Below, piece by piece: positions 1 to 19,157 of a stretch of DNA of 32,001 bases. Source of the stretch: a virus; IMG/VR virus record IMGVR_UViG_3300023106_000153, positions 1 through 32,001 of that record; one strand, 5' to 3'. The position numbers and the translations under genes were made by a program. The notes under the pieces were generated by a model. It did no database searches and was not told where the DNA came from. It saw only the letters and a list, made by a program, of their open reading frames with translations. Each line of letters starts with the position of its first letter. Position 1 is the first letter of the stretch.

Positions 1-816
1 TCAGCCGAGGGTTTTCGCGTGGTCTGGTACGTAGCGGAAGAGCTTGCGCGACGGGCGGTCGTAGTCGTCCGCGACCGGTCGGTCGGGGATCGTGACCGGC
101 TCCGGGTCGGACGACTCGTACGGGATCTGCGACAGCAGATGGCTGATGGTGTTGAGGCGCGACGCCCGCTTGTCGTCGCTCTCGATGGTCCACCAGGGGG
201 CCTCGTCGGTGTCGGTGTGGGTGAACATGTCGTCTTTCGCACGGGAGTAGTCCTCCCACTTGGTGATCGACAGCACGTCGACGTCGGAGAGCTTCCAGCG
301 CCGCACGGGGTCGTTGAGACGCTTGTGGAAGCGCGCCTCCTGCTCGGTGTCGGAGACCGAGAACCAGTACTTCACGAGGATGATGCCGTCGTCGATCAGC
401 ATCCGCTCGAACACGGGCGCCTGCTTGAGGAACAGCTCGTACTTGTCGGTCGAGCTGTAGCCCATCACGTGCTCGACGCCGGCCCGGTTGTACCAAGAGC
501 GGTCCATGAGCACCATCTCGCCCGCCGTCGGCAGCCGCTCGATGTAGCGCTGGAAGTACCACTGCCCCTGCTCGCGCTCGCTCGGCTTCGGCAGCGCCAC
601 GACTCGCGCCGTGCGCGGGTTGAGGTACTGCATGATGCGCTTGATCGCGCCGCCCTTGCCCGCCGCGTCGCGGCCCTCGAAGACCACGACGACGCGCGCG
701 CCGGTCTTCGAGATCCACTGCTGCATACTGACCAGCTCGATCTGCAGCCGCTTGAGCTCGGCCTCGTAGAGCGCGCGGTCGACGCGCTTGTGTTTCTTCT
801 TGTGCGGCTTCGACAC
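1..816 (-). CDS. ppk2: Polyphosphate kinase 2 (PPK2 family)
   Basis: This 271-residue protein is a complete PPK2 of usual length. PPK2 enzymes transfer phosphate between polyphosphate and nucleotides in the cytoplasm. The P-loop GRDAAGKGG is at about residues 48-56, and the Walker B/lid segment MDRSWYNRAGVE starts at about residue 104. A later KYWFSVSD segment is also typical. The N terminus is Lys-rich. The start codon is GTG (814-816), with no strong ribosome site. It begins 7 bases after the stop of the small gene at 824-934, so translational coupling is likely. This is host chromosomal DNA. Whether the enzyme prefers nucleoside mono- or diphosphates cannot be told from the sequence alone. 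Confidence 0.95.
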   Translation of the reverse strand: MSKPHKKKHKRVDRALYEAELKRLQIELVSMQQWISKTGARVVVVFEGRDAAGKGGAIKRIMQYLNPRTARVVALPKPSEREQGQWYFQRYIERLPTAGEMVLMDRSWYNRAGVEHVMGYSSTDKYELFLKQAPVFERMLIDDGIILVKYWFSVSDTEQEARFHKRLNDPVRRWKLSDVDVLSITKWEDYSRAKDDMFTHTDTDEAPWWTIESDDKRASRLNTISHLLSQIPYESSDPEPVTIPDRPVADDYDRPSRKLFRYVPDHAKTLG

Positions 817-823
817 CGGTCGC

Positions 824-934
824 TCAGCCGGAGGGGTTCTCGACGGGCGTTCCCTTTTCGTCGGTGCCGTCCGTGGGGTCGACCTCCTCGGGGTCGGTGA
901 CGTTCGTGTCGGGGGTGTCTTTCGGGTCGCTCAT
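824..934 (-). CDS. Small acidic protein upstream of ppk2
   Basis: A 36-residue ORF begins MSDPKDTPDTNVTDPEEVDP and is very rich in Asp, Glu, Pro and Thr, with no hydrophobic core. It is probably disordered. A strong ribosome site, AAGGAG, lies 6 bases before its ATG (932-934), which is the main reason to believe it is translated. It ends 7 bases before the GTG of the polyphosphate kinase gene on the same strand, so it may be the first gene of a two-gene operon or a leader peptide that couples translation. No function is recognised. Confidence 0.6.
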   Translation of the reverse strand: MSDPKDTPDTNVTDPEEVDPTDGTDEKGTPVENPSG

Positions 935-1029
935 CGTCGTCTCCTTCTGCGGCGGCCGGTGCCACCTCGGGGCAACGCTAAACGCATCGCGCCGGGATCG
1001 ATATGGCGAGCGGGAATCGGCGCGAGGTG

Positions 1030-3072
1030 CTACGGCCGGGCCAGCGCGCGTTCGAGGTCGGCGACGAGGTAGGGACGCAGGCTCATCAGCCAGGTTCCCG
1101 ACATGTGCGCCCCGGTGTCGCGGAACACCTGCACCCCTCCGATCACCGACGGGCAGAACCCCGCCGCGCAGTAGAAGTCTGAGAGGTCGACGAGGTGCAC
1201 GCGGTCGGCGTCGCTCTGCTTCACGGCCTTGAGCAGCGGATCGGTTGCGCTCAGCGCCTCCTTCTGCGGAGTGCCGCACGCGTTGTCCCGCGGGTCGAAA
1301 TCGAGGCGGGAGATGCACGCCAGCGCCTCCGCCGAGGGCTGCGGCACATCGGCGATGACCACGACGCGTGCGCCGTCGTCGGCTGCCTTCTTCCAGGCTC
1401 GGGCGTAGGCGTCGGAATAGTCGCCGCTGTCCCCTCCGACCCAGCGCGCGCCGGAGGTGACGACGACGTCGTACTTGCCAGCATCGAGCGCGGCCGAGAT
1501 GTCGGTCATGACGTCGCAGTCGGGCGAGGGCGGCGACTGCCACTGGCAACCGTAACCGAGGTAGGTATCGAGCGACCAGCCCAGCTCGTCGAGCGATGCA
1601 CGGATCGGTGTGAGCAGTTGCGCCGCGTGGCTGTCGCCCACGAGGGCGACCTTCATCGGAGCCGAGTCGTCTCCGTAGTGGCACGTCTTCATCGGCTTGT
1701 CGCGCTCGCGGAAGCACAGGAACGTGTCGCCGGAGTCGTTGAACAGGTCGCCGACCGACGGCACGACTGCAGCGGGGAGGTCGGACGGGTCGCATGCCCC
1801 GCTGTTGGCGACGTACGCGGCGCCCAGGCAGGAGACGGATGTCGCGGGCGCCTGTGGCGGCGTCGCCCGGGCTTCCACGGCCGGAGGGCCGGCGAGGGCG
1901 AGCGCTACACAGGCGACGAGCCCGGCCGCCGTCACGGTGGCGAGTACGGCCGGCCAGGTCGTGCGCGCACGGTCGGCGCCGGCGGGCTTGTGCCTGTACG
2001 CACTCTCGACGAACCGGTACGACAGCGCGGCGAGCACGAACATCGCGACGACGGCGGTGAGCAGATAGAGCGGCGACGTGGCAGGCATGACTGCGAGCAG
2101 CAGGCTGAGCACCGGGAAATGCCAGAGGTACAACGAGTACGAGATGTCGCCGATGTACGTGCTCACCCTGTTCGTGAGCGGTGCGATGGCGTAGGACTCG
2201 CCGGTGCCTGCGGCAATCACCAGCACCGTCGCCGCGACCGGGGCCAACGCCCACGGCCCGGGGAACGGGAGGTCGGGCGAGATGAACGCGGCGCTGGCGG
2301 CGATTCCGGCGAGTCCCGTCCACCCCATGATCGGGCGGATCCGCCGCGGCAGCCGGGAGACGAGTGGCATCATCAGCGCGAGCAACGCACCCGCCCCGAG
2401 TTCCCACGCGCGCGTGAAGGTCGAGAAGTAGGCGACCGTGGGGTCGGCCGCCGTCTGCACGACCGACCACGCGAACGAGACCACGATGATCACCGCCATT
2501 GCGACCTCGAGCGCGACGTGCCCCGAGCCACGGCGCAGCCGGCCGAAGGCGAACAGGAGGCCCAGCATGAGCCACGGCCAGACGAAGTAGAACTGCTCTT
2601 CGACCGACAGCGACCAGTAGTGCTGCAACGGCGACGGCGGTTGCCCGAGCTGGAAGTAGTCGACGCCGACGGCGGCCATGTGCCAGTTCCCGACGAAGAG
2701 ACTCGACCACAGACCGTCGAACGCGACTCCCTCGAAGCGGGTGAACGGGAACAAGAAGTACGCGCCGATCACGGTGGCCACGACGACGACTGTCGCGGCC
2801 GGCACGATCCGGCGCAGGCGGCGGGCGTAGAACCCACGGAACGATATGCGCCCCGTGCGGGAGTGTTCGCGCAGGAGGATACCGGTGATCAGGAAGCCGC
2901 TGATGACGAAGAAGACATCCACCCCGACGAAACCGCCGACCGGGAAGTGGAAGAGGTGGTCGGCGACGACGAGCAGCACCGCGACGGCGCGCAGGCCTTG
3001 GATGTCGAGTCGTTTTGCCCCGGCGGCGAGCGCGGTGGAGCGACGCGCGCGAGGGAGGAGTGCGACGGTCAC
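1030..3072 (-). CDS. Membrane acyltransferase 3 with C-terminal SGNH domain
   Basis: This 680-residue protein has the OafA/OafB-like layout. Residues 20-395 hold about ten hydrophobic segments of the acyltransferase-3 domain, with the D38-H39 pair and GVDVFFVISGFLI at about 50-62. After a linker (about 400-470) comes an SGNH hydrolase-like domain with VALVGDSHAAQLL (GDSH at 479-482) and a late DTGAHMS that probably supplies the Asp/His part. The family O-acylates cell-envelope glycans or other surface molecules. The acceptor is unknown here. The start is GTG at 3070-3072. The gene is host DNA between the tRNA fragment and ppk2. Confidence 0.93.
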   Translation of the reverse strand: MTVALLPRARRSTALAAGAKRLDIQGLRAVAVLLVVADHLFHFPVGGFVGVDVFFVISGFLITGILLREHSRTGRISFRGFYARRLRRIVPAATVVVVATVIGAYFLFPFTRFEGVAFDGLWSSLFVGNWHMAAVGVDYFQLGQPPSPLQHYWSLSVEEQFYFVWPWLMLGLLFAFGRLRRGSGHVALEVAMAVIIVVSFAWSVVQTAADPTVAYFSTFTRAWELGAGALLALMMPLVSRLPRRIRPIMGWTGLAGIAASAAFISPDLPFPGPWALAPVAATVLVIAAGTGESYAIAPLTNRVSTYIGDISYSLYLWHFPVLSLLLAVMPATSPLYLLTAVVAMFVLAALSYRFVESAYRHKPAGADRARTTWPAVLATVTAAGLVACVALALAGPPAVEARATPPQAPATSVSCLGAAYVANSGACDPSDLPAAVVPSVGDLFNDSGDTFLCFRERDKPMKTCHYGDDSAPMKVALVGDSHAAQLLTPIRASLDELGWSLDTYLGYGCQWQSPPSPDCDVMTDISAALDAGKYDVVVTSGARWVGGDSGDYSDAYARAWKKAADDGARVVVIADVPQPSAEALACISRLDFDPRDNACGTPQKEALSATDPLLKAVKQSDADRVHLVDLSDFYCAAGFCPSVIGGVQVFRDTGAHMSGTWLMSLRPYLVADLERALARP

Positions 3073-3123: not shown

Positions 3124-3160
3124 TGCCCCTGGCAGGAATCGAACCTGCGACCAAAAGATT
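3124..3160 (-). other. attL-type junction: 3' part of a tRNA gene (probably tRNA-Lys, CTT)
   Basis: On the minus strand the bases read AATCTTTTGGTC, then the T arm GCAGG-TTCGATT-CCTGC, then the acceptor 3' strand CAGGGGC and discriminator A. A 5' acceptor strand GCCCCTG is not found at the right distance upstream, so only the 3' part is present. Bases 39-43 (TCTTT) preceded by AA would fit an anticodon arm AAAGA-CTCTTAA-TCTTT, hence the tRNA-Lys(CTT) suggestion. The match to a tRNA is lost exactly in the anticodon loop. CCA is not encoded. The intact tRNA should be restored at the right prophage end. Confidence 0.75.
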
Positions 3161-3299
3161 CTGGGCTGTTCACCCCGGTTGTTCCGAGGTGGTTCGAGTC
3201 CCCTTTTCCTAGCTGGCGGGGCTGCCATTCTCAGGTCGGGTTGGCCGAGGTCAATCGTGGTCGTTCTGAGTTGTTTCCGCGGAGTAAACGGGGGCTGGC

Positions 3300-4418
3300 T
3301 CAGCTCGCCTCGCCGATCGCTTGTAGCTGCGCGCGCAGGTCTGGCGCCTTGTGGGTCCGCATCCGGTAGTGGGCTTCGGTGACTGCCCGGCCCGAGTGGC
3401 CGAGCTGCGCGCTGGCGTCGTCGACGTTCTCCAGCAATGAGCCGACCGACTTGCGGAACGTGTGGGGCGTGACCCAGGTGTACGGCGTTCCTTCGAGCGC
3501 GCTCCTCCACTGCTTGCGGAAATTGTTCGGGTCGCGGACCGTGCCCCGCAGCGAGGGGAACAGCAGCTCGCCGTCGAGCTCGCGCGCAGCCAGGATGTCG
3601 ACGACGAACGGCGGCAAGATCAGCTCGCGGCGCGACGTCGAACTCTTCGGGTGCGTCTGGATGCTCATCCCCTCGCCCTTCTTCCACAGCGTGGTCCCGG
3701 CGACGGTGACCGTGGGCGGGTTCGCCTCGAGGTCGAGGTCGACCCGGCGGAACGCGAAGACCTCGCCGATCCGGGCGCCCGTGCCCATCATCATGTTCAT
3801 GGGGTCCCAGAGGTCGCCGTGTGTTCGTTGCTCGACGGCTGCGATGATGCCCCGCATCTCGCGCAGTTGCTCGAGCGTGAGCGCGCGCACTTCCTTCTTC
3901 GCCTTCTGGATGCGGCCGACGTCGCGGATGGGGTTCGACTGGAGAGCATCGAGCCTGGCCGCCATGCCGAGGATGCCGCTGAGCACGGTCTTCGTCACCT
4001 TGGCGGTGGCGTTCCCGCGCGTCTTCGCGATCGTGCGCAGGTAGCTGTCGAGGCGCGCTGTCGTGACCTCGCGCAGCCGGATCCCGCCCATGCCCTTGTT
4101 GATGATGTCGAGCACTTCGCTGTATCGCCGCTCGGTGTTGAACGCCTTCTGCCCTTCGATCTCGTCGGCCCACCACTTCGCGCCCGCGACGAGGACCGTG
4201 GACTCCGCGGTGAGGTCGTCTCCCCCGGTGCGCGTTCGGTCGACGAGAGCCTCGCGGAGGATGTTCTCGGCGTTGCCCTTGCTCTTGTAGCTGGTGCGTT
4301 CGATCTCGCGGGTCACTCCGTCGAAGTCGCGCACGCGAGCGGAGGCGACGTGGACGCCGTTCTTGGTGACGGTCGAGATGCGGCCCCACGTGCCGATCGG
4401 GAGCGGTGGTCGGGGCAT
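3300..4418 (-). CDS. int: Tyrosine-type phage integrase
   Basis: The 372-residue protein has an N-terminal AP2-like arm-binding part (about 10-65), a SAM-like core-binding domain (about 75-165) and a C-terminal catalytic domain. The expected catalytic residues are visible: R216 in TGARIGE, a Lys near 258, H319 and R322 in TPHTFRKS, H341 in LGHSG, and the nucleophile Y351 in HYRMR. It catalyses integration and, with an excisionase, excision at the tRNA attachment site 140 bases beyond its 3' end. The start chosen (ATG 4416-4418) overlaps the stop of the upstream peptidase gene as ATGA and has GAGGAG before it. A longer open frame upstream exists but overlaps that gene fully. Confidence 0.95.
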   Translation of the reverse strand: MPRPPLPIGTWGRISTVTKNGVHVASARVRDFDGVTREIERTSYKSKGNAENILREALVDRTRTGGDDLTAESTVLVAGAKWWADEIEGQKAFNTERRYSEVLDIINKGMGGIRLREVTTARLDSYLRTIAKTRGNATAKVTKTVLSGILGMAARLDALQSNPIRDVGRIQKAKKEVRALTLEQLREMRGIIAAVEQRTHGDLWDPMNMMMGTGARIGEVFAFRRVDLDLEANPPTVTVAGTTLWKKGEGMSIQTHPKSSTSRRELILPPFVVDILAARELDGELLFPSLRGTVRDPNNFRKQWRSALEGTPYTWVTPHTFRKSVGSLLENVDDASAQLGHSGRAVTEAHYRMRTHKAPDLRAQLQAIGEAS

Positions 4419-4789
4419 CAGGCGCTCCTCATCGTCAGGTAGGTCTCGAGTACGTGCGGTGTGATCTGGAGCTCGACGGCCCACTGTGCGGGGTCGGGCG
4501 TGAAGCGGGATACGCGCTCGAGGTGGTCGGGGTCGACCAGGTGCTTTGCTGCGAACCGGTCGGCCATGCGTTCGTTGCGTGGTGTGCTCTCGATGTGGCC
4601 GAGGCAGACGTGGCCGATCTCGTGCGCGAGGGTCGTCCGTTCGAGCATGACGCGCATCTTCGTGTTGAGGATGATGGTTCGCTGCTCGGGAAGCCAGAGG
4701 CCGTTGGCGGTTCGAAGACGCCCGTAGACGACGTTGACTCCGAGACGGTCGGCGTGCTCGTAGGGGTCGTACGCCGGGTCCGTCGTCAT
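4418..4789 (-). CDS. ImmA/IrrE-type metallopeptidase
   Basis: The 123-residue protein carries the zinc-peptidase motif HEIGH at 56-60, followed by NERMADRFAA (about 72-81), where an acidic residue would complete the metal site. Relatives such as ImmA of ICEBs1 cleave a phage or ICE repressor and so induce the element. It starts at ATG 4787-4789, overlapping the repressor stop as ATGA, and ends overlapping the integrase start. This places it between the repressor it may cleave and the integrase. Cleavage of the repressor is inferred from family and position only. Confidence 0.9.
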   Translation of the reverse strand: MTTDPAYDPYEHADRLGVNVVYGRLRTANGLWLPEQRTIILNTKMRVMLERTTLAHEIGHVCLGHIESTPRNERMADRFAAKHLVDPDHLERVSRFTPDPAQWAVELQITPHVLETYLTMRSA

Positions 4790-5169
4790 GGGGCTTCTGG
4801 CTCGCTCTCTCCCGCGCTGTCGTCGCGGTTAGCCGCGTGCGGAAGTGCGAGTGCCTCATCTTCGGATAGCCCACCGACATCCGTCGAGCGGATGGCGGTC
4901 ACGTTGCCCGGCCGGTAGTTGCTCATGTCGCTCTCGACCTGCGCGACGAATTCTTCCGGGGCCATGCCGATGAAGGTGCAGAAGGCGTCGATGTCGTTGA
5001 GGCTGAATTCGTAGGTGCCGTTGACCCTCTCACGCACGTACTTCTCTGACTTCTCGATCGCGCGGGCGAGCGCGCGCCCGGACATCCGCCTGTCTCCCAT
5101 CTCCCGTCGGATAGCTGACGCGACGAGTTGAGCGAAGGCGCCGGGGGCGTCTAGGGGAAGTCTGGCCAT
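4786..5169 (-). CDS. Phage repressor, HTH (CI-like)
   Basis: The 127-residue protein has a helix-turn-helix region at about residues 28-55 (SGRALARAIEKSEKYVRERV), a short helical segment to about 85, and an acidic, probably disordered C-terminal tail of about 45 residues. It lacks a LexA-like autoproteolytic domain, which suits induction by the separate ImmA-like protease encoded next. It is the first gene of the repressor-peptidase-integrase operon and is divergent from the Cro-like gene. Before its ATG there is no ribosome site, only a -10-like TAAGAT six bases upstream, so the mRNA is probably leaderless. The prediction as lysogeny repressor is strong by position. Confidence 0.85.
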   Translation of the reverse strand: MARLPLDAPGAFAQLVASAIRREMGDRRMSGRALARAIEKSEKYVRERVNGTYEFSLNDIDAFCTFIGMAPEEFVAQVESDMSNYRPGNVTAIRSTDVGGLSEDEALALPHAANRDDSAGESEPEAP

Positions 5170-12755: not shown

Positions 12756-14572
12756 CCGCCGTCGTGGGCTACAAGCAGCCCGACGTCGCGTGGAACGGCC
12801 TCACGGTGACGGACCTGTTCTGCGGCGCCGGCGGTTCCTCCTCCGGGCTCGTGGCGGCCGGGTACCGAGTCGTCATTGCGGCGAACCACTGGGCGCAGGC
12901 GATCGCTTCGCACCAGATCAACCATCCCGAGACGGATCACGACTCGGCTGACCTGTCGCAGGTGGAGCCGTCGCGGTTCCCGACGACGGACCTTCTGTGG
13001 GCGTCGCCGGAGTGCACAAATCACTCGGTAGCGAAGGGCATCAAGCGGCAGCGCGCCGTCAACGAGGCGCTGTTCGAGCTCGAGGGCGCGCGGCCGCTCG
13101 CCGACGACGCGGCAATCCGCTCGCGGGCGACGATGTGGGATGTGCCCCGGTTCGCGGAGTACCACGCCTACAAGGCGATCATCATCGAGAACGTCGTCGA
13201 CGCCTACCGCTGGGTGCAGTTCCCCGCGTGGCTGCTCGCGATGGAGCTTCTCGGCTACGAGCACGAGATCGCCTGGGTGAACTCGATGCACGCGCAGGCG
13301 CTCGGCGACCCGGCGCCGCAGTCCCGCGACCGCATGTACATCGTCTTCTGGAAGAAGAACAAGGCGTCGAAGCGTCGCCCCGATCTGAAGCGGTGGACGA
13401 GCCCGAAGGCGCTCTGCCCGGTGCACGGGATCGTGTCGGCGGTGCAGACGTTCAAGAAGGCGGAGGCGTGGGGCCGCTACCGCGCGCAGTACGTGTTCCG
13501 CTGCGGCCAGTGCGCGACCATCGTCGAGCCGGGATGGATGGCGGCCGCGTTGGTCATCGACTGGTCGCTGAAGGGAACCCGGATCGGCGATCGCGAAAAA
13601 GAGCTGTCGCCTAAGACGATGGCCCGCATCGAGAAGGGCATCGAGAAGTATTGGCGGCCGACGATCGTCGAAGCCGCTGGCAACACGTACGACTCGACCG
13701 ACCCGAAGCACCGCAACTACGGCGACCCCGAGGGCTACATCCGTGCCTGGCCGGCCGAGGAGGCGCTGCGGACCCTGCACACGACGATGAGCAAGGGCAT
13801 CGCGTTCCCGCCGCTCATCACGGACGGGATCCGCGGCGAGGGCACGGTGCAGTCGGGCATGAATCCGATGCTGACGCAGACGACGGCGCAGACGAAGGGT
13901 CTGCTGATCCCGGTGGAGGGCCGAGAGGGAAAGGTCGCGGCCGACGTCGCCGAGGCGCTGCGCACGCAGTCGACCCGCAACGAGACGGGCATCGTCGTGC
14001 CGTTGCGGAATCACGGTGTCGCGAAGGGTGCGAGCCAGCCGATCGACACGGTGTCGGCGAACGGCAACCACCACGGCCTCATCGTCCGTGGCGAGGGCAA
14101 CGAGACGCCCAGCCGACCGACTACCGAGCCGATCGGAGCCATCACGGCGGCCGGCAGCCAGTTCCTCGCCACGCACCCAGCGCTGATCATGCGGAACAAC
14201 ACGGGCGGCGCCGAGATGTCGACGCCGGCGAGCGAGGCGTTGCGCACGATCACCACAGCGGGTCACCAGTCGCTGCTTGTGCCCTACTACGGCAACGGGA
14301 TGCCCTCGCCTGTCGACGAGCCGCACCGGACGCTGACGACCACAGACCGCTATTCCCTCGTCACGGGCCCGGTCGACATCAACGATTGCGAGTTCCGGAT
14401 GCTGACCCCCGACGAGATCAAGCGCGGGATGGGCTTCGCGGCCGACTACGCGCTGCTGGGAACTAAGCGCGAGCAGGTAAAGCAATCGGGCAACGCGGTC
14501 ACTCCCCCGAACGCACGCGACCTAGGCGCGTGCGTCGCGGAGTACCTGACCGGCGAGCTGGTGGCAGCGTGA
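12752..14572 (+). CDS. Cytosine-C5 DNA methyltransferase
   Basis: The 606-residue enzyme has motif I DLFCGAGGSSSG (21-32), a motif IV variant WASPECTNHS with likely catalytic C88, motif VI ENV (146-148), motif VIII QSRDR (190-194), LTPDEIKRGMGF (551-562) and motif X GNAVTPP (580-586). A zinc-ribbon-like pair, CPVH (222-225) and CGQC (251-254), is inserted. Between about 337 and 540 there are about seven imperfect repeats of the type EALRT-TT-GLLVP, probably forming the target-recognition region. It methylates cytosine in DNA, most likely to protect phage DNA from host restriction. No cognate restriction enzyme is adjacent. Start at ATG 12752 fits the ATGA overlap; a longer open frame upstream lies in the previous gene. 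Confidence 0.92.
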   Translation: MTAVVGYKQPDVAWNGLTVTDLFCGAGGSSSGLVAAGYRVVIAANHWAQAIASHQINHPETDHDSADLSQVEPSRFPTTDLLWASPECTNHSVAKGIKRQRAVNEALFELEGARPLADDAAIRSRATMWDVPRFAEYHAYKAIIIENVVDAYRWVQFPAWLLAMELLGYEHEIAWVNSMHAQALGDPAPQSRDRMYIVFWKKNKASKRRPDLKRWTSPKALCPVHGIVSAVQTFKKAEAWGRYRAQYVFRCGQCATIVEPGWMAAALVIDWSLKGTRIGDREKELSPKTMARIEKGIEKYWRPTIVEAAGNTYDSTDPKHRNYGDPEGYIRAWPAEEALRTLHTTMSKGIAFPPLITDGIRGEGTVQSGMNPMLTQTTAQTKGLLIPVEGREGKVAADVAEALRTQSTRNETGIVVPLRNHGVAKGASQPIDTVSANGNHHGLIVRGEGNETPSRPTTEPIGAITAAGSQFLATHPALIMRNNTGGAEMSTPASEALRTITTAGHQSLLVPYYGNGMPSPVDEPHRTLTTTDRYSLVTGPVDINDCEFRMLTPDEIKRGMGFAADYALLGTKREQVKQSGNAVTPPNARDLGACVAEYLTGELVAA

Positions 14573-15239: not shown

Positions 15240-15652
15240 GTGAGCGACCCGACACCCGCCACCCGCGCCGTGACGTACGAGCGCGACGGGCACCGTTGTG
15301 TCTCCTGCGGCGCGTGGGTGCAGCTGCAGTACCAACATCGCGCCGCGGTCGGCATGGGCGGCAGCAAGATCCGGCCACTGTTCGTGGACGGGCTGACGTC
15401 GTGCGCGATCTGCAACCCGGCGTACGAGCACGAGCTGCAGGCTCAGGCGCTGCGGTTCGGCTGGAAGGTGCCCTCGTGGGTGCGGGACCGCGATCGGATG
15501 GCGGACGTGCCCGTGTACTACCTGCTCGAGCGCACTTGGTGCCGACTTCGGCTCGATGGGGGCCGCGTCCGCATTTCGCAGCGAGGGCGATGCAGCTCAT
15601 GCACGAGGTCTATGGCGAGAGCTATGACGAAGAGAAGGGACTGGTGGCGTGA
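15240..15652 (+). pseudogene. HNH endonuclease-like gene with apparent frameshift near its 3' end
   Basis: The frame from GTG 15240 encodes VTYERDGHRCVSCGAWVQLQ, YQHRAAVGMGGSK and TSCAICNPAYEHELQAQALR, an HNH-type nuclease with two Cys pairs. After about 15577 this frame turns Arg-rich and would run to 15827 through the next gene. The -1 frame instead gives ARAMQLMHEVYGESYDEEKG and stops at 15652, overlapping the next ATG by one base like most genes here. A lost base near 15577-15579 (or a sequencing error) best explains this. The core nuclease is upstream of the break, so activity may persist with an altered tail. Confidence 0.65.
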
Positions 15653-16101
15653 TGGTGCTCCACATCGTTCCGGTGTCGTTCCAGACGGCGCGCGCATTCG
15701 TCGCGGCCCACCACCGCCACCACGCTCCGCCGACCGGGCACAAGTTCTCGATCGGCGTTGCGCAGGACGAGGTGCTCGTCGGTGTGGCTGTGGTCGGCCG
15801 TCCGATCTCTCGAGTGATCGCCGCTGACGGCGTGACGCTCGAGGTGCTCAGGACGGCGACCGATGGCACTCGCAACGCCAACTCGATGCTGTACGGCGCC
15901 GCTTGGCGCGCAGCTCGAGCGATGGGCTACGAGCGCCTCATCACATACACGCAGGAAGGCGAGTCCGGGGAATCACTCCGGGCAGCAGGATTCCGCGTGC
16001 TGGCTCACCGGCCGGCGCGCGGCGGATGGAACATGCCCGCGCGACCGCGCGAGAGCAAAGGCACCGAAGGGGTGCCGCGAACATTGTGGGAGGTGGCCTG
16101 A
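15652..16101 (+). CDS. XF1762-family protein
   Basis: The 149-residue protein matches the XF1762-like phage and plasmid family: HIVPVSFQTARAFVAAHHRH, HHAPPTGHKFSIGV, then VVGRPISRVI and EVLRTATDGTRNANSMLYGA. The family looks like an acetyltransferase (GNAT-like) fold with a conserved His-rich start, but its substrate is not known. The ATG at 15652 follows the stop of the HNH gene with one base overlap. An alternative GTG lies directly before it. Confidence 0.8.
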   Translation: MVLHIVPVSFQTARAFVAAHHRHHAPPTGHKFSIGVAQDEVLVGVAVVGRPISRVIAADGVTLEVLRTATDGTRNANSMLYGAAWRAARAMGYERLITYTQEGESGESLRAAGFRVLAHRPARGGWNMPARPRESKGTEGVPRTLWEVA

Positions 16102-16622
16102 TGGCCCCGGAGAAGATGACCGAGCGATTCATGCTCGACGCCCTGAAGAGGCGCTACACGGCGAACGGCGGGAACGGCGATCGCTGGATTCGAGCCGAGC
16201 ACGTGCGCAACGGGACGGGATTCTATGGCTACGACCGCGAGTCGGGCCGCTGCACGAGCTGGCTGCGCACGGCCGACTTCATCGCCCTCGATGGGTGGGA
16301 GTCGAAGAGCCACGTGGTGCACGGGCACGAAGTGAAGATCTCGCGCTCCGACTGGCTGACCGAGTTGAAGGATCCGGAGAAGGCCGAGGCGTTCCGCCCG
16401 TACTGCGACTACTGGTGGCTGGTGGTGTCCGATGTGAAGATCGTGCGCCTGGACGAGCTGCCTGCGGGCTGGGGGCTGATGGCTCGCGTCGGTGAAGGCG
16501 ATCAGCTGCGGGTCGTCAGACAGGCGAAGAAGATTGATCGGGAGCCGTTGCCATGGCCGATGGTGGTCGGGCTTACCCGTGCGGTGCAGAAGACCGCGCT
16601 GCGTGCTGGGGCGGTGGCCTGA
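16101..16622 (+). CDS. MmcB-like / PD-(D/E)XK nuclease-fold protein
   Basis: The 173-residue protein has DFIALDGWESKSHVVHGHEV followed by KISRSDWLTELKDPEKAEAF, the D...ExK core of MmcB-like DNA-repair proteins, then YCDYWWLVVSD. Such proteins have a restriction-endonuclease-like fold and are linked to DNA repair or processing. It lies between the XF1762 protein and the replication initiator with TGATG overlaps on both sides, so a role in phage DNA metabolism is likely. No partner recombinase is adjacent. Confidence 0.7.
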   Translation: MAPEKMTERFMLDALKRRYTANGGNGDRWIRAEHVRNGTGFYGYDRESGRCTSWLRTADFIALDGWESKSHVVHGHEVKISRSDWLTELKDPEKAEAFRPYCDYWWLVVSDVKIVRLDELPAGWGLMARVGEGDQLRVVRQAKKIDREPLPWPMVVGLTRAVQKTALRAGAVA

Positions 16623-17395
16623 TGGCCTATCAAGCAACGCACTGGGCGTGGGAGCTGGATCTGCCGATGACGCAGAAGTTCGTGCTCATCGCGCTCGCAG
16701 ACATGGCCGACGAGCAGCTGTCCTGCTACCCGGGCCAGAAGCGCATCGCGCGGATGGTCGGCAGCTCCGATCGCACGGTCCGCCGCGCGCTTACCGAGCT
16801 GGAGGAGCTGGGGCTGGTGGAGCGTGAAGAGAGACGCGCGAACGACGGCTATCGGACCTCCGACCGGTACATCCTGAAGACGAAAAAAGGGCTCACCGGA
16901 CAAAATGGCCGCAAGTCCAACCGGACAAATAGTCCCCGGACAATGGCGACACTCTCACCGGACATCCACGACAGTCTCACCGGTCACAGTGACCGGGCAA
17001 TAGAACAACCAGAGAATCACCAGAGAACCACCAGTAGTAAGAGCGTCGACCTGTTCGAGCTCGCGGATCCGAACGAGGGCGACCTGTTCGAGGCCTTCTG
17101 GTCGGTGTGGCCGAGGAAGGACGGCAAGAAGGCTGCGGTCGCTGCGTGGGCGAAGGCTCTGCCGAAGATGAACCAGCACGCGATCTTCGCGGCGGCGACT
17201 GCTTACGCGTCGTCGCCGTACCGGCCGGAGCGGAAGTTCGTGCCGTTCGCGTCGACGTGGTTGAACCAGGAGCGGTGGGCGGACGGGCCTATCCCGGCTC
17301 CGGAGCGTCGTGGGTCGTCGACGGTGGCTCATGGCCGGTCGGTGGATGGTCTTCTGGCTGCTCGCGAGGCTCAGGCTTTGGCGGTGTCGTCGTGA
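16622..17395 (+). CDS. Replication initiator, HTH domain protein (lambda O/DnaD type)
   Basis: The 257-residue protein has an N-terminal winged HTH (about 15-75; KRIARMVGSSDRTVRRALTE, LEELGLVEREERRANDGYRT), a polar linker (about 85-145), and a C-terminal domain starting LFEAFWSVWPRKDGKKAA, typical of phage replisome organisers that recruit a helicase loader. The linker DNA contains the iteron-like repeats at 16894-16996. The next genes are a helicase-loader-like protein and DnaB. This matches lambda, where the origin lies inside gene O. The start is ATG 16622. Confidence 0.85.
   Translation: MAYQATHWAWELDLPMTQKFVLIALADMADEQLSCYPGQKRIARMVGSSDRTVRRALTELEELGLVEREERRANDGYRTSDRYILKTKKGLTGQNGRKSNRTNSPRTMATLSPDIHDSLTGHSDRAIEQPENHQRTTSSKSVDLFELADPNEGDLFEAFWSVWPRKDGKKAAVAAWAKALPKMNQHAIFAAATAYASSPYRPERKFVPFASTWLNQERWADGPIPAPERRGSSTVAHGRSVDGLLAAREAQALAVSS
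16894..17045 (+). repeat. Iteron-like array, candidate phage replication origin
   Basis: The core CCGGACA occurs at 16896, 16921, 16936 and 16958. Related cores, CCGGTCA and CCGGGCA, begin at 16980 and 16993. The last two form a perfect palindrome, CCGGTCAC-A-GTGACCGG (16980-16996). Downstream is a locally AT-richer stretch with repeated CACCAGAGAA-like units (about 17005-17045), as expected for an unwinding element. All of this is inside the low-constraint linker of the initiator gene. Confidence 0.65.
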
Positions 17396-17805
17396 CCCCG
17401 CGCGAGGCGAACGTGTTCCTGACGAAGGCGGCCCTGCTCGACCCGCGCATGAAGCGCTTGGACGAGGAGGAGCAGGCCGACATGGCGACGATGTGGGCGG
17501 AGACGCTCGCCGATGTCGAGCTGGAAGCCGCGCTGGAGGCGATGCGGGCGCACTACCGCGCCGCGACGGTCCCGGTCATGCCCGCGCACGTGCTCGAGCG
17601 GCTCGGCGTCGTGGAGGTGGCGTCGTCGCCGTACCGCGACATCACCGCGGAGGTCGTGGCGGCGTCTCGTGCCCGCGAGTTGTTGGCGGCCGGCGTGACG
17701 GAGGCGGAGTACCAGGCGCACGCGACCGACCGCGAGTGGCTGCTGGAGAAGTTCGGGCAGAGGGACGCGATCGAGGTCGCCGACGAGAACGGGGAGCCGG
17801 AGTGA
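17392..17805 (+). CDS. Probable helicase loader (G39P-like)
   Basis: The 137-residue protein starts with GTG (GTGA overlap). MTPREANVFLTKAALLDPRM, then TMWAETLADVELEAALEAMR and VPVMPAHVLERL, resemble the all-helical loader fold of SPP1 G39P and related proteins that bring DnaB to the origin. The C-terminal half is charged and helical. Placement between initiator and DnaB strongly supports this. No ATPase motif is present, so it is not a DnaC-type AAA loader. Confidence 0.65.
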   Translation: MTPREANVFLTKAALLDPRMKRLDEEEQADMATMWAETLADVELEAALEAMRAHYRAATVPVMPAHVLERLGVVEVASSPYRDITAEVVAASRARELLAAGVTEAEYQAHATDREWLLEKFGQRDAIEVADENGEPE

Positions 17806-19157
17806 ACGACACGACGTACACGGACGCCGATGCGCCCGTCGACGAGGCTGCGGCCGCGGCGGACGCGGATGCGAAGTACGACCGCATCGCCGAGCAGTCG
17901 GTCCTCGGGTCGATGATGCTTTCGCCCGAGCAGGTCGACGAGGTGATGACGGTGGTGCTGCCCGGCGACTTCTGGGAACCAAAGCACGAGATCATCGCCC
18001 GAGCGATCGGCAGCCTCGTGGCGAAGAACGAACCCACAGACGCGATCGCGGTCGTCGAGGAGCTGCGGCGCACCGGGAAGCTGCGGCAGGCCGGCGGCGC
18101 CGCGTACGTGCACGAGCTGACCGGCATCCCGACGTCGACGAAGAACGCGGGCTACTACGCGTCGACGATGAAGGACGACGCGGTGAAGCGCCGCCTGGTC
18201 GCGGCGGGGATCCGGATTCAGGCCATGGGCAACTCCGGCGAGGGGGTCGCGGCCGAGCTCGTGAACCTCGCGCGCACGGAGGTCGAGTCGGTGGCGGTCG
18301 GGAAGGCCGGCGGGCTGAAGCCGATCGGGGACACGTTCGACCTGCTTATCGAGTCGCTGGCGACGGAGCCGACGTACATCCCGACGCCGTGGGAGTCGCT
18401 CGACAAGCTCATCGGCGGCTTCAGCGCGGGCGCGCTGACGGTGGTCGCGGCCCGGCCCGGGTCGGGCAAGACGATCGCGTGCCTGCAGATCGCGGCGAAG
18501 CTGGCCCATGCGGGGATGGTGGCGTTCTCGTCGCTCGAGATGACCGAGGGCGAGCTGCAGAAGCGGCTGCTGGCCCAGTTCGGGCCGGTGTCGATGACGT
18601 CGCTGCGGACGCACCAGATCCTGAAGCACGAGTGGGAGAAGATCGCGGAGGCCCGCTCGCGGGTGCAGGGAGCGCCGATCTTCATCGACGAATCCGCGGG
18701 TGTCACGTTGGCGCAGATCCGGTCGCACGCGCGCTCTGTGGCCCGCAGGGGCAAGCTGACCGGCATCGTCGTCGACTACCTGCAGCTGGTTGAGGGCGAG
18801 GGGCAGTCGCGGCAGGAGGTCGTGGGCGCGGTGGCGCGCGGCCTGAAGCAGCTCGCGAAGGATCTGGACGTGCCGGTGATCGCCGCGGCGCAGCTGAAGC
18901 GCGCGCAGAACCAACGCGGCCGCCAACTGCCGACCCTCGACGACCTGCGCGAGTCGGGTGACATCGAGGCGGCCGCCGACGTGGTGCTGCTGCTCGACCG
19001 CGACCGGGAGAAGCACCCGAACGACCTGACCGTGGTGGTGGCGAAGAACCGCTCCGGCGAGCAGGGGAAATTCACCCTCAACTGGGAGGCGCACTATGCG
19101 CGCCTCAGAGACAAGACGTGGTCGCCGACCGCGTTGATCGATGAATCGGAGATGTAG
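17802..19157 (+). CDS. dnaB: Replicative DNA helicase (DnaB family)
   Basis: The 451-residue protein has an N-terminal DnaB domain (about 26-125; EQSVLGSMMLSPEQVDEVM), a linker and a RecA-like motor domain. Walker A is ARPGSGKT (217-224), followed by SSLEM and the Walker B stretch GIVVDYLQLV, then RESGDIEAAADVVLLLDRD. It unwinds phage DNA at the fork as a hexamer. The start is GTG 17802, overlapping the loader gene (GTGA). About 25 Ala/Asp-rich residues precede the domain. Confidence 0.95.
   Translation: MNDTTYTDADAPVDEAAAAADADAKYDRIAEQSVLGSMMLSPEQVDEVMTVVLPGDFWEPKHEIIARAIGSLVAKNEPTDAIAVVEELRRTGKLRQAGGAAYVHELTGIPTSTKNAGYYASTMKDDAVKRRLVAAGIRIQAMGNSGEGVAAELVNLARTEVESVAVGKAGGLKPIGDTFDLLIESLATEPTYIPTPWESLDKLIGGFSAGALTVVAARPGSGKTIACLQIAAKLAHAGMVAFSSLEMTEGELQKRLLAQFGPVSMTSLRTHQILKHEWEKIAEARSRVQGAPIFIDESAGVTLAQIRSHARSVARRGKLTGIVVDYLQLVEGEGQSRQEVVGAVARGLKQLAKDLDVPVIAAAQLKRAQNQRGRQLPTLDDLRESGDIEAAADVVLLLDRDREKHPNDLTVVVAKNRSGEQGKFTLNWEAHYARLRDKTWSPTALIDESEM

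Follow-up and report, generated by a model that had tools for sequence, protein, structure and literature searches.

A probable replication origin within the linker-coding part of the initiator gene of an apparent actinobacterial provirus

The DNA analysed here, a window of 32,001 nucleotides from a virus record, appears to be a provirus of an actinobacterium. We put at about 85% the probability that it carries an origin of replication inside its initiator gene, bound by the winged helix of the protein which that gene encodes and working like oriL in gene 38 of SPP1, ori in gene O of lambda and the rep gene of plasmid pSK41. The segment 16894-17047, within the linker-coding part of the gene, would be this origin (Table 1) and, because its workings would be nearest to those of SPP1, lambda and pSK41 Rep, it is most likely a further case of an in-gene origin type that is already known. 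Copies of the initiator would bind the CCGGACA/CCGGTCA iterons via the winged helix, and since the last three plus-strand sites lie 22 bp apart, i.e. about two helical turns, the proteins on them would share one face of the DNA. The bound complex may then destabilise the neighbouring AT-rich 11-bp repeats, where the phage DnaB would be loaded by the C-terminal domain, probably acting together with the product of the small gene that follows. The initial annotation had proposed an origin in the initiator gene, a reading for which the PHROG match, the gene order, the constraint on the DNA and the recurrence in relatives all argue.

Table 1. Positions of the features discussed, numbered from the first letter of the window.
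Feature	Position	Strand	Basis
Initiator gene, 257 aa: winged helix, disordered linker, helical C-terminal domain	16622..17395	+	PHROG_270, HTH_36, AlphaFold2
DNA-binding winged-helix domain, aa 1-88	16622..16885	+	HTH_36, AlphaFold2, fold matches
Linker-coding segment with the proposed origin, aa 89-149	16886..17068	+	pLDDT <50 for most of aa 93-143
Iteron 1, CCGGACA	16896..16902	+	Word search, codon-phase mapping
Iteron 2, CCGGACA	16921..16927	+	Word search, codon-phase mapping
Iteron 3, CCGGACA	16936..16942	+	Word search, codon-phase mapping
Iteron 4, CCGGACA	16958..16964	+	Word search, codon-phase mapping
Iteron 5, CCGGTCA, left half of the palindrome	16980..16986	+	Word search, codon-phase mapping
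Iteron 6, CCGGTCA, right half of the palindrome CCGGTCACAGTGACCGG	16990..16996	-	Sequence, word search
Proposed DNA unwinding element, 42% GC over 45 bp from 16998	16998..17047		Stability, GC profile
Three tandem 11-bp units, AGAACAACCAG / AGAATCACCAG / AGAACCACCAG	17002..17034	+	Sequence; resemble the element of relatives
Helical C-terminal domain, aa 150-222, presumed to recruit the replisome	17069..17287	+	Conservation, structure models
Small gene, possible helicase loader	17392..17805	+	Position, overlap, weak Inhibitor_G39P match
DnaB-family replicative helicase	17802..19157	+	PF03796 (E 1e-70), PF00772 (E 8e-24), phrog_19

The product of the initiator gene matched the replication initiation proteins of PHROG_270 (E 3e-42), and its residues 13-66 matched HTH_36 (PF13730; E 2e-12). 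AlphaFold2 modelled aa 1-88 and aa 150-222 with confidence and gave pLDDT values below 50 to residues 93-98, 100-128 and 130-143 between them, so that the repeats do lie in linker-coding DNA, as had been claimed. The recognition helix runs from aa 50 to aa 62, R51 being among its first residues, and the fold matches of the winged helix comprised many solved winged helices, including the initiator/Rep entries 4pql, 4pt7 and 5kbj. The C-terminal domain carries a motif common to many phage initiators (FxxFWxxYPRKxGK...TWLNxxRW); it had no Pfam match, and Foldseek returned no PDB match for it, which does not in itself show the fold to be new. The small gene overlaps the initiator gene by GTGA and is overlapped in the same way by the DnaB gene; its match to Inhibitor_G39P (E 0.088, 13.8 bits) fell under the cut-off of 22. 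It occupies the same place in several relatives, and initiator, small gene and DnaB gene are all present in L002, L003, L087, L088 and L220. Close upstream of the initiator gene lies a gene for a Mom-like DNA modification protein (15649-16101; PHROG_1384, E 9e-40; PF25680), and a C-5 cytosine methyltransferase is suggested at 12761-14572 by a match to TIGR00675 (E 8e-22) that is under the family cut-off.

Four CCGGACA cores and two variants had been described in the linker-coding DNA, and the word search returned exact matches at all six positions. The five sites on the plus strand follow one another at intervals of 25, 15, 22 and 22 bp, and the two CCGGTCA sites together build a perfect 17-bp palindrome at 16980-16996, CCGGTCAC-A-GTGACCGG, which reads in the sequence as previously noted. 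Over the whole window CCGGACA was found 10 times versus 7 expected, i.e. it is clustered without window-wide enrichment, and no other cluster of it was found in the window, which is only a 32-kb fragment. The window had no Rfam matches.

Iterons 1 to 6 fall in codon phases 1, 2, 2, 0, 1 and 2, where they are read within the tripeptides TGQ, NRT, PRT, PDI, TGH and SDR, respectively. Given that all three phases are used, the repetition belongs to the DNA and not to the protein. When this peptide was recoded with randomly chosen synonymous codons, four CCGGACA copies arose in 1 of 100,000 sequences and all six sites in 3 of 100,000. As CCGGACA was picked after the data had been seen, fairer figures come from a null that is free of the word and counts any 7-mer repeated four times; such a 7-mer arose in 18 of 20,000 synonymous recodings and in 69 of 50,000 shuffles of codon order, and some 7-mer was present four times in 77 of the ~3,190 stretches of 150 bp in this GC-rich window. 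In view of the word-free nulls and of these 77 stretches, the evidence for repeats from this single sequence is good, not overwhelming, and only moderately significant; we take the comparison with relatives to be what is decisive.

An AT-richer stretch with repeats of its own had also been claimed, and this too was borne out. The 50 bp at 16998-17047 are the least stable of the provirus part (5200-32001) by nearest-neighbour energies, and downstream of the palindrome three 11-bp units of the form AGAAYMACCAG follow one another at 17002-17012, 17013-17023 and 17024-17034. No DnaA box near consensus was found in 16500-17600, and the GC skew showed no clear inflection at 17 kb.

Comparison with 93 non-redundant relatives, each subjected to a codon-shuffle test at p<=0.01, revealed significant repeats in the linker-coding DNA of 69, versus 4 of 93 in the segment coding for the winged helix and 2 of 88 in that coding for the C-terminal domain. 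Many of the 24 relatives that missed the threshold have short linkers. The repeats recur at an interval of 22 bp in 47 relatives (2.4 expected) and of 23 bp in 43 (3.2 expected), neither interval being divisible by 3, with an echo at 44-46 bp; intervals of 11-13 bp, among them those of the melting repeats, are also raised. The iteron cores themselves vary even among close relatives: ACCGCTCA in L002, CACCGGAAG in L003, ACACCGCA in L082, ACCGGTCA in L083 and L086, ACCGATCAATCTG in L095 and AGGTGCA in L088. AGAACCA, in turn, was present in the linkers of 31 records versus 3.5 expected, and AGAACCAY in 30 records and in all three codon phases. The family pattern is one of variable iterons and a recurring downstream element of AGAACCAY type, which is the less expected part of the finding. 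If the pattern holds, one gene would suffice to locate the origin in many actinobacterial and environmental phages where it is unmapped, mini-replicons and vectors could be built for poorly tractable hosts, and the diverged winged helices with their own targets would offer a natural series for the study of how DNA recognition evolves. Two candidate generalisations were rejected. The AACCAYCAG pair is not a specific tag for origins: only 14 of the 80 viral loci that have it are recognised initiators, 66 have no recognised initiator around, and the seven of these 66 with repeats upstream proved to be coding sequence of a simple repetitive kind. Nor was a terminal palindrome supported as a family rule, an inverted half following the last iteron in 8 of 54 relatives versus 25 of 155 for other iterons.

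These results bear on three other explanations of the repeats. If the linker peptide were merely repetitive, or had drifted into low complexity, the DNA would have no function of its own; disordered linkers tolerate repeats, and in a window as GC-rich as this it is not unusual for a 7-mer to be present four times within 150 bp. Yet the copies occupy all three phases, synonymous recoding almost never recreates them, and the linker repeats of the 69 relatives keep the spacing while their cores differ. Chance or repetition at the protein level was rejected on the codon phases, the synonymous recodings and the codon shuffles, and we regard drift as hardly credible. An operator, at which the winged-helix protein would bind inside the gene that encodes it, blocking transcription or regulating its own amount, while the origin lies elsewhere, would suit the similarity of HTH_36 to the winged helices of transcription factors and the position of the sites within the gene of their presumed binder. 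However, ~270 bp separate the start codon from the sites, which border the least stable DNA in the provirus part. The neighbouring genes are replication genes, and an operator needs neither the 22-bp phasing nor an adjacent melting element, both of which recur in relatives. We consider this reading unlikely as a substitute for an origin, although an operator role is compatible with origin function.

The sites could also serve partition or incompatibility, as a parS-like or copy-number control site of an extrachromosomal prophage. Plasmid iterons take part both in replication and in partition or copy-number control. Moreover, extrachromosomal prophages are known in actinobacteria (PMC7157519). 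Against this stands what is seen near the left end of the window, where a minus-strand ORF, 3300-4880, resembles a tyrosine integrase gene and adjoins a stretch of that strand, 3129-3165, that looks like a tRNA 3' end. An integrase-like ORF in this position makes the provirus look integrative, and we hold a partition site to be very improbable. Since ARAGORN found no whole tRNA at 3129-3165, the apparent tRNA 3' end beside the integrase-like ORF is probably the attachment site. Genes of host type, one for polyphosphate kinase 2 and an ORF reading like a membrane acyltransferase, occupy 1-3072.

An in-gene origin, the reading that we prefer, has well-studied counterparts. In SPP1, oriL in gene 38 consists of direct repeats and an AT-rich unwinding element, and initiator, loader and a phage helicase of the DnaB family (gp38-gp39-gp40), encoded in a row, act together (PMC6316719). 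The provirus likewise has repeats and an AT-rich element within the initiator gene, after which come a small gene and a DnaB gene; the small gene, as a possible counterpart of gp39, reaches the gp39 family only under the cut-off, and the second origin of SPP1, oriR, which has similar repeats, has no equivalent found in this 32-kb window, which is a fragment. In pSK41 the rep gene has four boxes at its centre, to which the N-terminal domain of Rep binds; the linker that the ori codes for is dispensable, and the C-terminal domain is required for replication (PMC5703833). Boxes central in the initiator gene are likewise found here, and the fold matches include 4pql, 4pt7 and 5kbj, although many unrelated winged helices score as high as 4pql and 4pt7 do (Z 8.5-8.6); the RepA_N domain was absent from the Pfam matches of the initiator up to E 1 and, unlike pSK41, the module is that of a phage with its own helicase. 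The initial annotation had likened the layout to that of lambda, where ori lies within gene O and has four iterons, versus six in Stx phages (PMC7466680), and for the layout, in which iterons and an AT-rich tract lie midway through the initiator gene, the likeness is right. Kinship with lambda O is weak and at the level of families, seen in matches to PHROG 'O-like' families and, in BFVD, to Min27 protein O, and the lambda O family (Phage_rep_O) was absent from the initiator's Pfam matches up to E 1. Unlike lambda, whose P-type loader recruits the host DnaB, the provirus encodes its own DnaB, and Pfam gives the gene between initiator and DnaB no recognised loader match. By analogy of function, SPP1 and the RepA_N plasmid pSK41 would be the closer match. 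ORF20 of Staphylococcus phage 80alpha is a G38P-like initiator thought to hold the origin in its gene (PMC5499656), although 80alpha, unlike the provirus, relies on the helicase of its host and on a DnaC-like loader.

The variable iterons raise the question of what the winged helix recognises. Among 22 relatives, iteron base 6 was A or C in 5 of the 6 with R51 and T in all 16 with another residue (Fisher 2e-4), a figure to be read in the light that residue 51 was chosen after seeing the data and that, in a poorly resolved tree, independent pairs are too few. Sites are mixed in L099, and L392, a later relative with R51, mixes T and C. Family-wide, the partial Mantel correlation for the recognition helix was 0.145 (p 0.012), but aa 25-35 of the same domain score alike (0.143), so that the helix does not stand out in this test. 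A code of one residue is a possible lead, suggestive only, in which R51 would pair with ACCGG(A/C) and other residues with ACCGNT. More tentatively, a large phage group may share a two-part origin module in which a recurring melting element of AGAACCAY type accompanies freely varying iterons that track residues of the recognition helix; were this doubtful proposal true, the initiator gene would by itself reveal where an unstudied phage has its origin and, in part, what its specificity is.

Among isolated phages, Galaxy and Andrew of Arthrobacter and JBD68 of Pseudomonas have an initiator-like gene with repeats in the linker DNA, of GGGGTGAAC type in Galaxy and Andrew and ACGGGGTGCAA in JBD68, followed by repeats of AGAACCGTCC or AGAACCACCAA type; their iteron core differs from CCGGACA, and their p values are optimistic because the best of several segments was taken. 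No mapped origin for these three was found in the literature searched; that of Galaxy is predicted to lie in its gene 42. In L003 (4001-4519) the initiator frame stops at residue 171, just past its own repeats, and the match to the C-terminal domain resumes in another frame. In Microbacterium phage ValentiniPuff (L218, 4264-4420) the initiator-like protein is a winged helix alone, of 87 aa, and iteron-like CCTACCGGC sites and TGTGGAAA repeats lie just outside the gene.
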